From a virus: a DNA stretch of 64,000 nucleotides. This document shows, in pieces, positions 1,721-51,737 of the stretch (the first letter of the stretch is position 1; the number at the start of each line of letters is the position of its first letter). The notes under the pieces were generated by a model. That model was not told where the DNA came from, made no database searches, and saw only the letters and a list, made by a program, of their open reading frames with translations. The stretch spans positions 31,728 through 95,727 of IMG/VR virus record IMGVR_UViG_3300027996_000011. One strand, 5' to 3'. Both the position numbers and the translations under genes were made by a program.

Positions 1721-3163
1721 ATGTCATTATCAGTAGTATTCAGTTCAAAAGAAATAAATAAAGATTTTATAGAGTTAATAAAAAAAACCTCTGGGGTACA
1801 TAAAATAGAAATTTTACCATATGAAAATCCAGGAAAATATTCTTTAACTGATGTCTACAATATGGGTTTGAAGGACTCAAAAAATGACATAGTTTTATTT
1901 TGTCATGACGATATTAAGTTTGATACTAAAAATTGGGGTAGAAAGTTACTTAAACATTTTGAAAAAAGTGATTATGGTATATTAGGTGTTGCTGGATGTA
2001 GGTATTTACCTGAATCTGGAAAATGGTGGGAAATACCATCAGAAATGATGGGTCAGGTTTACCACGAAAATGATGGTAAAAGATGGTTATCAACATATAA
2101 CCCTAAATTTGGTAATAATATATTACCCTCTGTTTTAGTTGATGGGTTATTTTTTGCTGTTAATAAGAATAACTTATCTAGGGATTTTGACGAGTCCGTT
2201 AGGGGGTTCCATTTTTATGATTTAAACTTCTGTGTACAAAACTTCTTGTCTGGTGTTAAAATTGGTGTTATCTCTAATATTGACATTACCCACTTATCTA
2301 TTGGTCAAACTAATCAAGAATGGGAAAGGAATAGGATTTTATTTAGTGAAAAGTATAGTGATAGTTTACCATTAATGGTTAGCTTAGTTATGCCCGAATT
2401 AAAACCTAAAAAAAGTAGTCCTTTAGTTTCTATTATAATTCCTGTTTATAATTATGGAAAAACTTTAGATAGGGCAATAACTTCAGTATTTTCCCAAACC
2501 TATAAAAATTTAGAAATTATTATAATAGATGATGGGTCTACAGATAATTTTACAAAGTTAAAACTTAAAAATTTAAAATTACCAAATACTAAAATCATAT
2601 TTCAAGAAAATGGAGGCCCTTCTAAAGCTAGGAATGAAGGTATAAAAATTTCTAGTGGTGAATATATTTTACCTTTGGATTCTGATGATTTGATGCACCC
2701 TACTTACGTAGAACAGTGTATAAAAATTATAACTACAGATAAAAAATATAGCCCTATATATTGTGATACAGTACATGAGGGACAAATGAGGGGTATAGAA
2801 AAAAGGCCTGAGTGGAGTAAAGAAAGATTAATTAATGGCCCTTTTATCGTTAATTGTTCTATGTTTAGTAGAGAAGCTTTTGATTCTATAAATGGTTATG
2901 ACGAAGAACTAAAAGGTTGGGAGGATTACGACATGTGGTTACGAATGATGCAAGAAGGTTATGTGGGTAAAAGAATCCCAAACCCTTTATTTATTTATTT
3001 CCACCATGAAAGTGAAGGGACGGTATCCACTATAGCAAATCAAGATACTAAATCACTACACGAAAAAATATTAATAAAAAACAAGTTAATAACTGACCCA
3101 GCTAAAACATCTATTTACACTCCTTTAACGAATAATAACACATCATTTAATTCATTTGTATAA
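1721..3163 (+). CDS. Two-domain glycosyltransferase (GT2-type GT-A domains)
   Basis: A 480-residue cytoplasmic protein that appears to carry two GT-A domains. The N-terminal half (about 1-220) has a diverged fold with FCHDDIKFD (about 60-68) as the likely DxD-type nucleotide-sugar/metal site. The C-terminal half begins PLVSIIIPVYNYGKTLDRAI near residue 228, with the classic GT2 features IIDDGSTD, NGGPSKARNEG, LPLDSDDL (DxD) and WEDYDMWLRM. It probably transfers two sugars, or the N-terminal part has become structural. It opens the long carbohydrate run, eight bases after dUTPase, and is followed three bases later by another glycosyltransferase. The acceptor cannot be read from sequence. Confidence 0.85.
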   Translation: MSLSVVFSSKEINKDFIELIKKTSGVHKIEILPYENPGKYSLTDVYNMGLKDSKNDIVLFCHDDIKFDTKNWGRKLLKHFEKSDYGILGVAGCRYLPESGKWWEIPSEMMGQVYHENDGKRWLSTYNPKFGNNILPSVLVDGLFFAVNKNNLSRDFDESVRGFHFYDLNFCVQNFLSGVKIGVISNIDITHLSIGQTNQEWERNRILFSEKYSDSLPLMVSLVMPELKPKKSSPLVSIIIPVYNYGKTLDRAITSVFSQTYKNLEIIIIDDGSTDNFTKLKLKNLKLPNTKIIFQENGGPSKARNEGIKISSGEYILPLDSDDLMHPTYVEQCIKIITTDKKYSPIYCDTVHEGQMRGIEKRPEWSKERLINGPFIVNCSMFSREAFDSINGYDEELKGWEDYDMWLRMMQEGYVGKRIPNPLFIYFHHESEGTVSTIANQDTKSLHEKILIKNKLITDPAKTSIYTPLTNNNTSFNSFV

Positions 3164-31869: not shown

Positions 31870-32568
31870 TTATCTATTTAAGAAATTGTCCAACTTAGAC
31901 ATCATAGATAAAGATTTATTTAATTTTTGTTCTGGAGCTTTAGAAGATTCCAAAACTTCACCAGTTTCATCTACGCTATCTGGTGATTCTGTCTCTTGGA
32001 ATAGGTAAGAGCCTGGTGTTGAGGGGGATGATACTAAGTCAAAACAAATTAACTCAAAGTCTTCTTGGACTTGGTTGTAGTCTCCGTTTTTTGTTAGTGA
32101 ACCAACACCTCTAGAAGATATACCTAGAGTAACACCCTGCCTTAATAAATTAGCTGCTTGGTCACCAACACATGAAATAACCCCTTCTTTAATATATCCT
32201 GGTGATGTAAGTAGCTTAAGTTTACCAATTAATCTATTTCCATCCCACCAAGTTTCTGTGATTATATGAGAAGCTCTATCTAAGTCTATTAAAGATGATT
32301 CTGGATGATTAAGTTCAGATATCGCACCACCTTTTTTTATTACTTCTTGGTATCTTTCGTTTTCTCTTCTTAGTATTTGTTCTGGATATATTCTTCCGTT
32401 CCTGTTTGGGGTGTCGTATTTTTGTAAAATAGCTAACATATAAATCTCCCCACCGAAATCAGCATTTTTCATTTCTGAAATAATAGCTTTATTTTCGTCT
32501 GGTGATATGTACCCATCATGTTCTACTAAAATACCATGACCACTTTCTTTGGCTTCTAAAACTCTCAT
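31870..32568 (-). CDS. Prohead core protease (T4 gp21-like, peptidase S77)
   Basis: A 232-residue serine protease that matures the prohead. YDTPNRNGRIYPEQIL, GAISELNHPESSLIDL (His88 in the conserved NHPE/DHPE motif) and GVTLGISSRGVGSL (Ser151/152, the nucleophile region) match the T4-type prohead proteases. VQEDFELICFDLVSSPSTPGS is the family's late DL..SPS.P motif. Its likely targets are the capsid precursor (LINE/A) and other head proteins with [I/L]xE sites. An acidic/Lys-rich tail follows the catalytic domain. A late-type motif lies 13 bases before the ATG. Confidence 0.9.
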   Translation of the reverse strand: MRVLEAKESGHGILVEHDGYISPDENKAIISEMKNADFGGEIYMLAILQKYDTPNRNGRIYPEQILRRENERYQEVIKKGGAISELNHPESSLIDLDRASHIITETWWDGNRLIGKLKLLTSPGYIKEGVISCVGDQAANLLRQGVTLGISSRGVGSLTKNGDYNQVQEDFELICFDLVSSPSTPGSYLFQETESPDSVDETGEVLESSKAPEQKLNKSLSMMSKLDNFLNR

Positions 32569-43329: not shown

Positions 43330-45195
43330 TTATTTAACTTCTTCGAACTCAACATCAGTAGTGTTTTCTCCCTCTGAAGGTGGTGGTGTCTCATCACCCC
43401 CACTTTCTTCATATAGTTGGGTTGATACTTCCTGCCATTTTTGGTTTATCTCCTCCATTGTAGTGTCTATAGACTCTAGATTTTTTTCTTCAATTGATTT
43501 TTTTAACCTACCTACAATCTCAGTCAATTTTTCTTTTGAGTCCTGGTCTAATTTATCTTCATACTCTTTTAATTGTTTTTCTGTTTGAAAAACCATCGAG
43601 TCTGCTTCATTTAACTTTTCCACCTCTTCTTTTTTCTTAGCGTCTTCTGATGCATTTACTTCTGCTTCTTTTTTCATTCTTTCAATTTCATCATCAGACA
43701 AACTACTACCAGACTCTATTTTAATATTATGTTCTTTTCCAGTACCTTTATCTAAAGCTTTAACATCAATAATCCCATTTGCATCAATATCAAACGTAAC
43801 CTCAATCTGAGGTATTCCTCTTGGTGATGGTGGGATATCTGTTAGTTGGAATCTGCCTAAGGTTCTATTATCTGGAGCCATTGGTCTTTCACCTTGTAAA
43901 ACATGGATGTCCACAGATGGTTGGTTATCTACAGCGGTAGAAAATATTTGGGATTTAGATGTTGGTATTGTGGTGTTAGATTCAATTAATGGTGTCATTA
44001 CCCCACCCATTGTTTCTATACCTAATGAAAGTGGTGTTACATCTAATAATAATACGTCTTTAACATCTCCAGCTAAAACACCACCTTGTATTGCGGCTCC
44101 CATAGCAACAACCTCATCTGGGTTAACTCCTTTTGATGGTTTTTTCTTAAATAGTTTTTCTACAGCTTCTTGTATTACTGGAATTCTTGTAGAACCACCA
44201 ACTAATAAAATTTCATCAATGTCTGTTACTTTTAATCCAGCATCTTTAATTGCTTTTCTACAAGGGGTAAGACTTTTTTTAACTAAATCCTCCACCATAG
44301 ACTCAAATTTAGCTTTAGATAATGTACGTACAAGGTGTTTTGGTCCTGTATTATCTGCGGTAATATAAGGTAGGTTTATTTCTGTTGTTGTTGAGTTAGA
44401 TAATTCTACTTTGGCTTTTTCTGCTGCTTCTCTTAGTCTTTGTAATGCGGAAGGGTCATTACTTAAGTCCATATTATTTTCTCCTTTAAACTCGTCTAGT
44501 AACCAGTCTATAATTTTTTCATCAAAATTATCACCACCAAGATGTGTGTCACCATTTGTTGACATAACCTCAAATATCCCATCACCAATTTCAAGAATAG
44601 AAATATCAAAGGTACCACCACCTAAATCATATACAGCAACCACTTTGTCTTCATTTTCATTCAACCCATAAGCTAGTGCCGCAGCTGTCGGTTCATTTAT
44701 AATTCTTAGTACTTTTAATCCAGCTATTTCTCCAGCTTCTTTTGTTGCATTTCTTTGTTCGTCATTAAAATAAGCTGGTACTGTAATTACAGCTTCAGTT
44801 ACTTTAGTACCTAAATAATCTTCAGCTGTTTTTTTCAAATTTTGTAAAACTACAGCTGAAATTTCTTGTGGTACATAGGACTTATCGTCTACTTTAATTG
44901 TAACAATGCCCTTACTACCTTTAACAACATCGTAAGACATTTTTTTAGCTTCTTTAGTTATTTCACTAAATTTACTACCTATAAATCTTTTTACCGAATA
45001 AATTGTATTTTTAGGGTTTGTAACACCTTGTCTTTTTGCTGGGTCACCAACAGACCTATCACCTTCTTTATACGATACTACAGAAGGGGTGGTTCTTTTA
45101 CCCTCTGAATTTACAATTATTACGGGTACACCCGCTTCAACCACCGAAACACACGAATTCGTTGTTCCTAAATCAATTCCAATTACTTTTGTCAT
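43330..45195 (-). CDS. dnaK: DnaK (Hsp70) chaperone, full length
   Basis: A 621-residue Hsp70 with every canonical part. The ATPase domain has [14 protein letters not shown] (5-18), [47 protein letters not shown] and [13 protein letters not shown]. The linker reads [19 protein letters not shown], the substrate-binding domain has [19 protein letters not shown], and the helical lid ends in DVEFEEVK. That tail is the form seen in Bacteroidota DnaK, so acquisition from a host-like bacterium is likely. It folds nascent or stressed proteins with DnaJ/GrpE, which are not in this window. A promoter with -7 TACTTTTG and a divergent clp gene share its upstream region. Confidence 0.95.
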
Positions 45196-45374: not shown

Positions 45375-47414
45375 ATGATAGATTTTAGTGCAGACTCAGA
45401 TATGGAAGAAATAAATAGTGGTGGTGAAAAACAAAAACCAAGTGTAGCGGATAGTGGTACACCAATTCTCGATAATTTTTCTCGTGATTTAACAGCTATA
45501 GCAGCTAGAGGTGAATTAGACCCAGTTATAGGTCGTGAAGATGAAGTTAAAAGAATAGTGCAAATTTTAGCTAGACGTAAGAAAAATAACCCAGTGTTAA
45601 TTGGTGAACCTGGAGCTGGAAAGACTTCAGTAGTGGAAATGTTGGCTACTATGATTCATCTTGGTAAATGTCCTAGAACGCTATTAAATAAAAGAATAGT
45701 ATTGTTGGAGTTATCCTCATTAGTTGCTGGTACTAAGTACCGAGGTCAATTTGAGGAAAGGATGAAAGCTATAATAGATGAATTAAGGGAAAATAAAGAA
45801 GTTATTATTTTTATAGATGAAATTCATACTGTGGTAGGTACTGGAAATTCTTCTGGTAATTTAGATGCTGCAAATATATTTAAACCGCCTTTAGCTAGAG
45901 GTGAAGTACAATGTATAGGGGCAACTACTATGGATGAGTATAGAGAAAAAATTGAAAAAGACGGTGCATTAGAGAGAAGATTTCAAAAAGTAACTATTGA
46001 CCCACCTTCTTTGTTTGATACCGTAAAAATTCTAAAAAATATAAAACATGTTTATGAGGAACACCATAATGTTAGTTATAGTAATGAAGTGGTTGAGTTA
46101 TGTGTTAAATTGGCTGACAGATATATAAGTGACAGGGCTTTTCCTGATAAAGCAATAGATGTACTTGATGAGGTTGGGTCCATGGTTCAGATAGAGGTTA
46201 AAACACCAAAAACGTTGGAAAAATTAAAAGGTGAGATTGATAATCTTAAATTAGAAAAGATTGAGGTTGTGAAGTCTCAAATGTATGAAAAAGCCGCTGA
46301 TTTAAGAGATGGTGAAAGAAAATTAACTGAGAAGTTACGTAAATTAACAACTGATTGGGAAGAAAAGCAATCCCTAAATAAGATAGATATTACTATTGAA
46401 AACGTTATGGATGTTGTATCTAAAATAACTAGGATACCTTTAAGTAGGATGAATAGAAATGAGAAAAAAAATCTTTTAAATCTAGATGGTCAATTAAAGA
46501 AAGAAGTTATAGGGCAAGATGAAGCTATAAACACTATTGTAAAAGCTGTAAGACGTAACTCTATAGGGATAAAAGAATTGGATAAACCAATAGGTTCCTT
46601 TATCTGTCTGGGACCTACTGGTGTTGGTAAAACTCATTTAGCTAAAAAATTATCTGAATTACTTTTTGGTAGTGAGGAGTCTTTAATAAGGGTAGACATG
46701 TCTGAGTACCAAGAAAAACACTCAGTTTCTAGACTAATAGGTTCACCTCCAGGATATGTTGGGTACAATGAAGGTGGTCAGTTTACTGAAAAAGTAAGAC
46801 AGAAGCCATATTCTTTAATACTCTTTGATGAGATAGAGAAAGGTCATAGGGATATTTTTAATATTCTTTTACAGATTTTAGATGATGGTTATGTAACAGA
46901 TGCTGCGGGTAGAAAAATTAATTTTAGAAATACTTTAATTATGATGACTTCTAATATTGGTGTTAAAAACTCCCAGGATTTTAGTAGAGGTCTAGGGTTT
47001 ACTACTAAATCATCCGAACAAACAGATAAAGAAAGAATTAGAAGTATTATATCAAAATCACTTAAAAATACATTTAATCCTGAATTTTTAAATCGTTTAG
47101 ATGATGTAATTATGTTCGAAACTTTGGATAGGTCTAGTGTGAAGAAAATAGTTAAAATAGAGTTGTCTTTTTTAACTTCTAGATTACTGGAAAAAAACTA
47201 TAGTATTAAATTTAGTCCTAGTGTTATTGACCATATTTGCGAGGTAGGTTATGACGAAAAGTTTGGTGCTAGACCACTAAAAAGAGCCATCCAATCAGAA
47301 GTTGAGGACTATATTTCATCTCAGATACTAAAAGATGGTATTATAGAAGGTAACAAATACAACTTAAGTTATTCTAAAAAATCTAATAAGTTTAAAATTG
47401 TCGACAAAGGTTAG
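45375..47414 (+). CDS. ClpC-like AAA+ unfoldase lacking the N-domain
   Basis: A 679-residue two-ring Clp/Hsp100 ATPase. Ring 1: LIGEPGAGKTSVVE (Walker A 77-84), VIIFIDEIHTVVG (Walker B), ALERRFQKV (Arg fingers). A short UVR-like insert, VVKSQMYEKAADLRDGE (298-314), marks ClpC rather than ClpB. Ring 2: CLGPTGVGKTHLAK (413-420), LILFDEIEKGH, FNPEFLNRLDD. RGLGF (538-542) occupies the ClpP-contact loop position (IGF/LGF/VGF in ClpA, ClpX and ClpC), so host ClpP docking is plausible. The usual about 145-residue adaptor-binding N-domain is absent, replaced by a 30-residue acidic leader. It diverges from dnaK. Confidence 0.9.
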   Translation: MIDFSADSDMEEINSGGEKQKPSVADSGTPILDNFSRDLTAIAARGELDPVIGREDEVKRIVQILARRKKNNPVLIGEPGAGKTSVVEMLATMIHLGKCPRTLLNKRIVLLELSSLVAGTKYRGQFEERMKAIIDELRENKEVIIFIDEIHTVVGTGNSSGNLDAANIFKPPLARGEVQCIGATTMDEYREKIEKDGALERRFQKVTIDPPSLFDTVKILKNIKHVYEEHHNVSYSNEVVELCVKLADRYISDRAFPDKAIDVLDEVGSMVQIEVKTPKTLEKLKGEIDNLKLEKIEVVKSQMYEKAADLRDGERKLTEKLRKLTTDWEEKQSLNKIDITIENVMDVVSKITRIPLSRMNRNEKKNLLNLDGQLKKEVIGQDEAINTIVKAVRRNSIGIKELDKPIGSFICLGPTGVGKTHLAKKLSELLFGSEESLIRVDMSEYQEKHSVSRLIGSPPGYVGYNEGGQFTEKVRQKPYSLILFDEIEKGHRDIFNILLQILDDGYVTDAAGRKINFRNTLIMMTSNIGVKNSQDFSRGLGFTTKSSEQTDKERIRSIISKSLKNTFNPEFLNRLDDVIMFETLDRSSVKKIVKIELSFLTSRLLEKNYSIKFSPSVIDHICEVGYDEKFGARPLKRAIQSEVEDYISSQILKDGIIEGNKYNLSYSKKSNKFKIVDKG

Positions 47415-48558: not shown

Positions 48559-49059
48559 ATGAATTTAGAAAGAACAAGAAATATTGCAATTGACTTAATG
48601 AGACAACATGGTCTAACTGGTTACACTTTTAAGTGGGACAAAGCTGTTAGAAGATTTGGTTCTTGTAATGGTAGAACTAAAACCATAACTCTTTCTAGAC
48701 CAATGACTCAACACGAAACTAACGAAAAAAGAGTTATAAACACAATTCTTCACGAAATCGCTCACGGACTAGATTATAAAAATAGAGGGTACTCTAATCA
48801 CGACTCTCAATGGAAAAGAGTGGCTAGGTCTATCGGTTGTAGTGGTGAAAGATGTAGTAGTGGTTCTGGTGTTGACAAATCTAAATTTATGAAGTGGGTA
48901 GCTACCTGTCCTAATTGTGAAAAAGACGTTTATTACGCAAGAAAAACAAAAGTAGATAAAGCATGTGGTGTGTGTTGTAAAAAACACAACAATAACAAGT
49001 ACACATCAGAATATAAGTTTAACTGGGAATTAAATCCTAAAGTTGTAAAATATAAATAA
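48559..49059 (+). CDS. SprT-like zinc metalloprotease-fold protein
   Basis: A 166-residue SprT/Spartan-like protein. NTILHEIAHGLDYKN (61-75) carries the HExxH motif (H65, E66, H69) and NHDSQWKRVARSIG (80-93) the third zinc His81, as in SprT. The C-terminal part is a zinc ribbon, CPNC...CGVCC, with RKTKVDKA between the pairs. Spartan relatives cut DNA-protein crosslinks; the phage role may be DNA repair during replication. It begins a three-gene rightward unit whose members overlap or abut. A host-type -7 box precedes it, so it is probably early, unlike the gene before it. Confidence 0.85.
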   Translation: MNLERTRNIAIDLMRQHGLTGYTFKWDKAVRRFGSCNGRTKTITLSRPMTQHETNEKRVINTILHEIAHGLDYKNRGYSNHDSQWKRVARSIGCSGERCSSGSGVDKSKFMKWVATCPNCEKDVYYARKTKVDKACGVCCKKHNNNKYTSEYKFNWELNPKVVKYK

Positions 49060-49589
49060 TGGAAAAATTAGAATATAAAATAAAAAATGGACCAAGGGTA
49101 GAATCTGTAAATGAATTTACCCTTAGTGATGACACTAAAGTAGCGATGTTTCAGGGATTTAGAGGTTCTTACCCCGAATTAGACTTTATTGTGAAATATA
49201 AGGAGCCAACGAATAGATTGAGGACCCCTTCTCACACACATTGGATTGTAGACCTATTAGTTAAAGCAGAATTTAACAAGGAGATGGTTAGAGACTTTGT
49301 ACAGAAGTATTTGGATTTATATGACGTTATGACCCCTTTTGAGACTCAGGAGGAACGCAATAACTACCAACTACAACACATAGGAGGGTCTCTAACAGAC
49401 TTTCAAGGTATAGATGGTTGTGGGTATCTAAGTGTGGAGTTTCTCTCTAGTATCTTAGAATTATTCATTTTATGTGAAAAAAGGTCTGATGATGCGTTTA
49501 TGTTTAAAGGTTTATTACAATTAGTAATTGACTTCTGTGATGGTAAAAGAGATTACTATCAAGTGGTGGGTTACTCTAAAAGAGTTTAA
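49059..49589 (+). CDS. Hypothetical protein (176 aa)
   Basis: A 176-residue soluble protein starting MEKLEYKIKNGPRVESVNEF, with KVAMFQGFRGSYPELDFIVK, THWIVDLLVKAEFNKEMVRD and a Leu-rich SVEFLSSILELFILCEK helix. It is not recognised. Its ATG overlaps the SprT-like stop by one base, and one base separates it from the peptidase gene, so the three are co-transcribed. Confidence 0.65.
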   Translation: MEKLEYKIKNGPRVESVNEFTLSDDTKVAMFQGFRGSYPELDFIVKYKEPTNRLRTPSHTHWIVDLLVKAEFNKEMVRDFVQKYLDLYDVMTPFETQEERNNYQLQHIGGSLTDFQGIDGCGYLSVEFLSSILELFILCEKRSDDAFMFKGLLQLVIDFCDGKRDYYQVVGYSKRV

Positions 49590-49590
49590 T

Positions 49591-50397
49591 ATGAAAGAAA
49601 AATTAAAAGAATTGTTATCGATACCAACTAAGACTTGGGAAGAGGAAAGATTAATAAATTATCTTATGTCACATTTTGAAGAAATGGGATATGATTATGA
49701 AAAAGATGATTTGGGAAATTTGTATGTAACTAAAGGAGTTTCTGACTACTACCCTTTGGTCCTAGCTCACACAGATAGTGTTCATGATATTGTGGAGATG
49801 GAAGTTAGAGAAGAGTATTTACCTAATTCCCAGGGGGAAAGTAAATTAGCTCTAAAGGCTTATACAAAAGAAGATGGGACACCTACAGGGATAGGTGGTG
49901 ATGACAAAGCTGGGGTTTTTATATGCTTACAACTGTTGGAAAAATTCGATGTGATTAAAGCATTTTTCCCGGTTGCTGAAGAAACTGGGTGTCATGGAAG
50001 TAGGGGTGCTAAAGAGGAATTTTTTAAGGATGTTGGCTACGCCATACAATTTGACTCTACAGAAAATGATACGATGTCACTTTCTTTAATGGGAGTGAGG
50101 TTGTTTGAACAAAAATCCGAGTTCTTTAGTAAGACTCGTAATATAATTTTAGAGCATGGCTTTACTGAGTGGAGACATCACCCATATACCGACACTATGA
50201 TTCTTAAAGATAAATTTAATTTTGCTTGTTTAAACTTTGCTGCTGGATATTACAATTATCACACTTCTAATGAGTATGTTATTGTTGAGGATGTGAAAAA
50301 TTCTATAAAATTAGGTGAAAATGTTATAAGTAAGTTAGGTAACTCTTTTTATGAATTTAAGTCCAAGCAGAAAGAGTCTGATTTTTGGTTCGATTAG
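49591..50397 (+). CDS. M20-family metallopeptidase (PepT-like)
   Basis: A 268-residue di-zinc peptidase from ATG 49591; the upstream in-frame extension lies in the previous gene. LVLAHTDSVHDI (57-68) holds His60 and Asp62, GGDDKAGVFICLQLL (102-116) the bridging Asp, PVAEETGCHGSRGA (127-140) the catalytic Glu-Glu pair, FDSTEND (154-160) a further Asp, and YNYHTSNEYV (221-230) the last His224. All ligands of an M20 enzyme are present. It is shorter than typical PepT/M20 (about 370-410 aa): the lid/dimerisation domain appears very small. It could trim peptides or process signal molecules. Confidence 0.82.
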   Translation: MKEKLKELLSIPTKTWEEERLINYLMSHFEEMGYDYEKDDLGNLYVTKGVSDYYPLVLAHTDSVHDIVEMEVREEYLPNSQGESKLALKAYTKEDGTPTGIGGDDKAGVFICLQLLEKFDVIKAFFPVAEETGCHGSRGAKEEFFKDVGYAIQFDSTENDTMSLSLMGVRLFEQKSEFFSKTRNIILEHGFTEWRHHPYTDTMILKDKFNFACLNFAAGYYNYHTSNEYVIVEDVKNSIKLGENVISKLGNSFYEFKSKQKESDFWFD

Positions 50398-51043: not shown

Positions 51044-51053
51044 TATAAATATT
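51044..51053 (-). promoter_or_regulatory. Putative late promoter motif AATATTTATA
   Basis: In the coding direction AATATTTATA, 11 bases before GTG 51032. It sits back to back with the host-type promoter at 51053-51083. Confidence 0.52.
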
Positions 51054-51083
51054 TTGATTATTAGAATAAGATACTTATATTTG
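51053..51083 (+). promoter_or_regulatory. Bacteroidota-type promoter (-33/-7) for basic protein and tmRNA
   Basis: TTTG (51053-51056), an exact 19-base spacer, TATATTTG (51076-51083): a perfect TTTG-N19-TAnnTTTG match. It would drive the small basic protein and probably the tmRNA four bases beyond it. Confidence 0.75.
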
Positions 51084-51109: not shown

Positions 51110-51295
51110 ATGCCAAAATCAAGAAATAGAAAAAATCACAAGAAAAAAGTGTCTGCACGTAAACTTAGGGTAGAGTCCCAACAAAAACAGATGATTAAAC
51201 AGTTAGAGGAAATAAAAACTAAGTACGCGGAAGAACAACAATCAAAAGAATCGGAATCTACTGGTGAGGTACCTTTTACTTTAGATAAAAAATAA
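51110..51295 (+). CDS. Small basic protein upstream of tmRNA (61 aa)
   Basis: A 61-residue protein, very basic at the start (MPKSRNRKNHKKKVSARKLR), helical in the middle (QQKQMIKQLEEIKTKYAEEQ) and acidic at the end. The basic segment suggests RNA or ribosome binding. It lies between a perfect host-type promoter and the tmRNA, with the tmRNA beginning four bases after its stop, so both are probably on one transcript cut by RNases. Whether it works with the tmRNA (as SmpB does) is unknown; it is too small to be SmpB. Confidence 0.65.
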   Translation: MPKSRNRKNHKKKVSARKLRVESQQKQMIKQLEEIKTKYAEEQQSKESESTGEVPFTLDKK

Positions 51296-51298
51296 TAT

Positions 51299-51707
51299 GG
51301 GGGTGACTGGAATTGATTGGCATCCGTCGATTAGTGTCAGCACGTCGAGCCTGAGTTAAGCTCGTAAAATCTGATTCATTTTTTTAACTGGCAAAACAAT
51401 TGCTAAGTTGGCAACTCTAGGACTTGTCCGTGAAACGTCAACAGTGGCTGTAGCGTAACTAAGTTACGATATAGCTCCACTCCTTCTAAAGAATTTAAGA
51501 TTTGTGTCTTTAGTTTTTGGAGTGTCAAATAGACAAATCGAACCCGGCAATAATTGTTCCGTCGGAAAGTTGGAGAACAATTGCGAAGGTCCCCAAGGTT
51601 GTTTATTCTATAAGGGCATTCAAAGACAAAGGAATAAACTAAACGTGTAGGATAGACGTTAGTAGAAGATGAACAAGACGGGGGTTCGATACCCCCCACC
51701 TCCACCA
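51299..51707 (+). ncRNA. ssrA: tmRNA (transfer-messenger RNA)
   Basis: A 409-base tmRNA. The acceptor stem pairs GGGGGTG (51299-51305) with CACCTCC (51697-51703), including G3-U70 at 51301/51701, the alanine identity pair, and CCA is encoded (ACCA 51704-51707). The D-domain start GACTGGAATTGATTGGCA follows. The T-arm is GGGGG-TTCGATA-CCCCC (51680-51696). GAGC...GCTCGTAAAA (51347-51369) matches the first pseudoknot and its GTAAAA tail, and GTAAC-TAA-GTTAC (51455-51467) is the hairpin that holds the tag stop. It rescues stalled ribosomes with SmpB. A terminator follows at once. Confidence 0.93.
51390..51458 (+). other. tmRNA tag reading frame (atypical, 22 codons)
   Basis: The resume codon is proposed as GGC 51390, giving a 22-residue tag that starts GKTIAK and ends TSTVAVA before TAA 51456-51458, which lies in a hairpin loop/stem as in other tmRNAs. 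Bacteroidota tags usually read GENNYALAA; the DNA here (ACTGGCAAAACAATT) looks like that start with one G missing. A rival frame from GCA 51391 stops at TAG 51418 and would end in QL. Confidence 0.55.
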
Positions 51708-51712
51708 AAAAG

Positions 51713-51737
51713 AAAAGGACCACTAGGTCCTTTTTTT
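51713..51737 (+). terminator. Terminator after tmRNA
   Basis: AAAAGGACC, loop ACTA, GGTCCTTTT, then more T residues: a nine-pair stem right after the tmRNA CCA end. It also overlaps the stop of the leftward gene at 51736, so it may serve both strands. Confidence 0.9.

Follow-up and report, generated by a model that had tools for sequence, protein, structure and literature searches.

Phage-encoded tmRNA is itself established. Ten tmRNA phages had been listed by 2014 (PMC4131195), tmRNA together with SmpB was reported from huge phages in 2020 (PMC7162821), 402 of 18,146 phage genomes, given as 2.3%, were counted with a tmRNA in 2021 (PMC9004378), and the tmRNA database of 2025 holds 79 phage sequences (PMC11915505). 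An initial annotation of the DNA analysed here called tmRNA genes rare in phages, which is fair with the qualification that the 2021 count and the huge phages of 2020 bring. The ssrA gene of Melnitz and the pelagimyophages is, like the one described below, that of a marine myophage; it is two-piece, circularly permuted, of the alphaproteobacterial type and has a glutamine riboswitch, whereas the present gene is one-piece (PMC9004378). Standard phage tmRNAs like the present one are also found in the Streptomyces BE1/BE2 phages, Bacillus phage G, Prevotella Lak-C1 and the huge phages LR756504 and LR756508, some of them with ClpP and/or ClpC. Streptomyces phage Sushi23, whose tag is ANSKFAFALAA, lacks both ClpC and ClpP. 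Phage G has the tag AKLNITNNELQVA, ending QVA, with ClpP present and a ClpC of the kind described below absent, and Lak-C1 has DDEIDFRMAA with ClpP and no ClpC. LR756504 has the 24-aa tag DNVNSFEQSILNELFAPVEMAVAA, ending AVAA, with both ClpC and ClpP, and LR756508 a tag ending KPAAV with ClpC and a weak ClpP match (the last three tags were read in this analysis). Mesoplasma florum likewise has a long tag that does not end in LAA, and there the reader is Lon (PMC9382460); the related phage records, on the other hand, have ClpC, and ClpP in the larger ones, and no Lon (0 of 18 records), so that a phage Lon as tag reader was rejected. Our literature search, of incomplete coverage, returned no description of a linked tmRNA-ClpC-ClpP set in phages. 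What is distinctive at the present locus is the tag family.

The window, i.e. the whole stretch of DNA analysed, has 64,000 nucleotides and covers 31728-95727 of a virus record that is 95,727 bases long. Since this record encodes a gp23 capsid protein, a gp20 portal, a T4-type terminase and an S77 prohead protease, we assign the virus to the T4-like myoviruses. The closest capsids among named isolates belong to a Microcystis phage and to Flavobacterium phages, at about 42-43% identity, and no isolate of the tmRNA-bearing lineage was found. The window also encodes, at 1721-3163 on the plus strand, a glycosyltransferase-like protein that matches GtrB-type O-antigen conversion families. ARAGORN finds a single tmRNA and zero tRNAs in the window, and cmscan matches RF00023 at exactly the same coordinates, over model positions 1-374 of 374, with 108.2 bits (gathering score 47 bits) and an E-value of 2.4e-41; Rfam families other than RF00023 were not matched in the window. 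The gene and its parts are as follows.

51299-51707, plus strand: one-piece tmRNA (ssrA), full-length by ARAGORN and RF00023
51299-51305 with 51697-51703, plus strand: acceptor stem of 7 pairs including the G3.U70 alanine identity pair, from the sequence
51346-51364, plus strand: PK1 hairpin CGAGC...GCTCG (strands 51346-51350 with 51360-51364), by covariation
51390-51458, plus strand: tag frame GKTIAKLATLGLVRETSTVAVA with resume codon GGC and TAA stop, from the Rfam alignment, relatives and pN/pS
51454-51468, plus strand: helix over the tag stop codon, CGTAAC/GTTACG, by covariation
51680-51707, plus strand: T-arm (51680-51696), 3' acceptor strand and encoded CCA (51705-51707), from the sequence

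The tmRNA at 51299-51707 is thus complete and genuine, and the hallmarks for which it was first noticed (G3.U70, encoded CCA, PK1, T-arm and a terminator) can all be read in the sequence. That it is phage-encoded was likewise borne out, both by gp23, gp20, TerL and the prohead protease on the same contig and by the recurrence of the locus across virus records, with RF00023 above cut-off in 21 of 32 related ones. The gene resembles bacterial one-piece tmRNA (RF00023) in its full-length match, the tRNA-like domain with G3.U70, PK1, tag frame, T-arm and CCA; it differs from the RF00023 consensus in the D-loop region, which is GGAATTGAT here and GGaUUCGAC in the consensus. A blastn search of the tmRNA region against 50,697 phage records gave no match.

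In order to assess the structure, the named stems were compared among 19 aligned relatives. Overall 93.4% of the cells pair and 10 of 23 pairs are doubly changed; the covariation score is 0.227, compared to 0.080 +/- 0.013 in shuffles, and slid registers pair at no more than 54% in every case. Stem pairing and covariation therefore far exceed chance. The acceptor-stem G.U is present in all 19 relatives, with compensatory changes at other pairs of this stem, and PK1 shows double changes in four of its five pairs. The helix over the tag stop has 88% of its cells paired, with double changes in three of six pairs, whereas T-stem pairing is 100%, one position showing four pair types.

ARAGORN's own tag for the window gene is AKLATLGLVRETSTVAVA. 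We rejected its start, AKLAT..., in favour of GKTIAKLAT, which begins four codons earlier, because the Rfam consensus resume codon aligns with GGC at 51390, ARAGORN itself begins the tags of two relatives at GKTLAKL, and relatives of the lineage have a GGN codon at the homologous spot. The start given by ARAGORN is thus probably wrong, and reading from 51390 yields a tag of 22 aa ending VAVA, compared to a commonest length of 10 aa in the tmRNA database (PMC11915505). Nearly all related tmRNAs keep the same tag frame. Their tags, which include GNVLDTMATLGLVREGSSVAVA, GDVYSQMELMGLVSVDSKVAVA and GDLFANLVNEGLLKTEGQEVAIA, have 20-25 aa and differ by whole codons, and a stop closes every frame examined. 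In the nine closest sequences purifying selection acts on the tag frame: pN/pS is 0.48 in this frame, compared to 1.21 and 1.09 in the two others.

The window tag ends in AVA and not in a canonical ssrA degron tripeptide of the LAA/VAA type. The related tags end mostly in V-A-V/I-A rather than L-A-A (VAVA in 11, VAIA in 3 and VTVA in 3 of 23 tags); the penultimate A is replaced by V or I in 19 of the 23, the final residue is A in 21, and small or hydrophobic residues precede it. An LVA ending, whose penultimate residue is also V, remains a strong degron in enterics: among the LVA, AAV and ASV variants it was degraded fastest in Salmonella, and to some extent even when ClpXP was missing (PMC11003136). 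A penultimate V alone does not abolish a degron.

The tmRNA lies in a putative transcription unit with the following elements.

51053-51083, plus strand: candidate Bacteroidota-type promoter TTTTG-N19-TATATTTG, the sole match to the pattern and kept in relatives
51110-51295, plus strand: small basic ORF of 61 aa between promoter and tmRNA, from the sequence
51710-51737, plus strand: intrinsic terminator of 12 pairs followed by a T run, from the sequence

The pattern TTG-N18-20-TATATTTG has a single match in the 64 kb, from 51054, upstream of the tmRNA. At most 350 bases upstream of the tmRNA it is found in 13 of 24 relatives, where dinucleotide shuffles give 0.025 on average (the relatives are non-independent; spacers vary between them and both boxes stay). 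The looser TTTG-N17-21-TANNTTTG is not clearly enriched window-wide, with 8 matches versus 4.2 expected and 6 of 100 shuffles as high. We take the TTTG/TAnnTTTG motif to be the Bacteroidota primary-sigma promoter type, which suggests a host of this phylum; judging from the promoter type and the distant capsid similarity, the virus probably infects Bacteroidota. A T4-late-type TATAAATA box upstream, at 51044, was given little weight because the motif is common in the AT-rich window (27 found versus 17.5 expected). The 61-aa ORF, which has no Pfam match, is probably part of the same transcript as the tmRNA. A similar ORF starts after the promoter in several relatives, and in L051 and L062 the promoter directly adjoins the tmRNA. 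The terminator starts two bases past the tmRNA 3' end and forms, on the opposite strand, a terminator-like stem for the converging gene.

The initial annotation connected the tmRNA with two other genes of the window.

45375-47414, plus strand: ClpC-type double AAA+ unfoldase of 679 aa, by Pfam and a match to residues 155-807 of ClpC 6em8
43330-45195, minus strand: full-length DnaK (Hsp70), by Pfam and the NCBIfam DnaK equivalog

Since the alignment to the solved ClpC begins at residue 155, the window ClpC lacks the N-domain. The [LIV]GF loop docks ClpP in ClpA, ClpC and ClpX. This ClpP-docking loop ([LIV]GF/L in D2) reads LGF in the window ClpC and is kept in relatives, the extracted phage D2 sequences having [LIV]GF between the TSN and PE[FL] motifs. 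ClpC is encoded in 12 of the 13 tmRNA records that were retrieved with the tmRNA 5' pattern and independently of a ClpC query; the sole one without it, G023, has the canonical tag ANDDFQLAQAA. ClpP is present in five of the six tmRNA records of at least 197 kb (G017, G018, G019, G022 and G025; not G006) and also in G012, which has ClpC and no tmRNA above cut-off. None was found in the window's own 95.7-kb record, which is a fragment. In four inspected ClpPs from relatives the Ser-His-Asp motifs GMAASMG, HQSSGG and RD-W are intact, and for the one ClpP scanned the ClpP housekeeping models outrank head-maturation models, though below curated cut-offs. We rejected ClpP as prohead protease because tens of kb or more separate it from gp23, because the one scanned best matches housekeeping models and because a separate S77 gene (31870-32568, minus strand) fills that role.

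DnaK was found in 12 of 22 records tested. In G019, DnaJ, ClpP, tmRNA and two CUA-anticodon tRNAs all lie within 8 kb. These tRNAs (L114 8405-8480 and 9896-9969), which ARAGORN calls tRNA-Pyl, are downstream of the other three genes; amber suppression or recoding is a possible role. Between ClpC and the tmRNA of the window we also observed a SprT-like metalloprotease (48559-49059, plus strand; significant Pfam match) and a gene at 49528-50397 on the plus strand with a weak, below-cut-off likeness to M28/M42 peptidases, giving this stretch the appearance of a proteolysis cluster. The proposed link of DnaK and ClpC to the tmRNA has gained support from conserved linkage across the lineage, from the ClpP-docking loop of the phage ClpCs examined and from the ClpP genes of the larger records. 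The further proposal of a phage takeover of host quality control exceeds the data: no SmpB is encoded, and host pathways remain. SmpB was found in 1 of 26 records (G010) and is absent from the window's record; this near-constant absence suggests that host SmpB would be needed. G010 also has 26 tRNA genes near ClpC (L013 8385-14463; L081), and its tag ends KVAA.

The reading that we favour, with a probability of roughly 0.78, is that the phage performs its own trans-translation with host SmpB, and that tagged chains are disposed of by host and/or phage Clp protease. During infection, the tmRNA would be transcribed from the host-type promoter and then trimmed, host AlaRS would charge it with alanine, and host SmpB would bind. 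The RNA would then load on ribosomes stalled at cut or incomplete mRNAs, and translation would restart at GGC (51390), so that the stalled chain acquires Ala plus GKTIAKLATLGLVRETSTVAVA and the ribosome is released at TAA. The tag would probably target the chain to an ATP-dependent protease, either host ClpXP/ClpCP or phage ClpC docked on host or phage ClpP, or both, with DnaK handling unfolded chains. At the level of genomes, genes for ribosome rescue and for Clp proteolysis are carried together by at least one lineage of large phages, probably Bacteroidota-infecting, with a tag that is conserved in the lineage in a form unlike the usual one. This makes testable why phages carry their own tmRNA and whether the degron has been rewritten to route rescued chains to a chosen protease.

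A different reader of the tag is an attractive possibility, although we consider it unlikely: a degron read mainly by the phage ClpC without N-domain, acting with phage or host ClpP, would divert rescued chains from the host protease. The long tag ending VA[VI]A throughout the lineage agrees with this, as do ClpC in every lineage tmRNA record tested, the canonical ANDDFQLAQAA in the ClpC-less G023, and ClpP in most large records; the tag switch from ClpXP to Lon in Mesoplasma/Mycoplasma is a precedent (PMC9382460). However, the association within the lineage is confounded by common descent, enterics degrade LVA tags fast (PMC11003136), and the link fails outside the lineage. Phage G, with QVA and ClpP and no such ClpC, and LR756504, with ClpC and ClpP and a tag ending VAA, break a strict rule by which a non-canonical tag ending goes with phage ClpC; we rejected the rule. 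Outside the lineage, a given tag ending thus does not strictly go with a phage ClpC. A fully self-contained orthogonal branch, with private tag, own tmRNA and own N-domain-less ClpC on own ClpP, is doubtful; if true, phage and not host machinery would dispose of chains stalled in infection.

We consider it improbable that rescue takes place without disposal, i.e. that the altered C-terminus is a poor degron, ribosomes are recycled and tagged proteins stay stable. Although the change of the penultimate A to V or I in 19 of 23 tags would fit this, A keeps the final position in 21 of 23 and follows small or hydrophobic residues, a pattern shared with known degrons; LVA, moreover, acts as a strong degron in enteric bacteria (PMC11003136), and Clp genes are present in these phages. 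A very improbable alternative is that the RNA acts as a decoy, titrating the SmpB of the host and so stopping its trans-translation, a role suggested for the DS6A RNA, which has no tag. A DS6A-like RNA does inhibit tmRNA, perhaps via SmpB titration (PMC4131195), and no SmpB was found in the window's phage record; the full tag frame under purifying selection and the intact stems nevertheless favour a working template. The possibility of a gene without phage function, whether recently captured from a host, left as a prophage scar or present through bacterial contamination, is already largely refuted: ssrA fragments are frequent in integrated elements, but this gene is complete rather than a 3' remnant, many virus records have it with conserved tag and promoter, and in an 84,980-genome bacterial collection no contig has a tmRNA of this 5' end, the sole match being a chance, non-tmRNA sequence.

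Two further calls in other phages may be noted. The tmRNA called in Maribacter phage Panino (PP540027.1 27557-27889, L121) overlaps tRNA-Asp and tRNA-Thr, is probably a false call and was left out. LR756508.1, a 484-kb phage, has besides its full-length tmRNA (L100) a second locus at about 414804-414915 (L103), a 112-base tmRNA consisting of the tRNA-like domain only, with 58 bits to RF00023 and no room for a tag, which is reminiscent of the DS6A inhibitory RNA.
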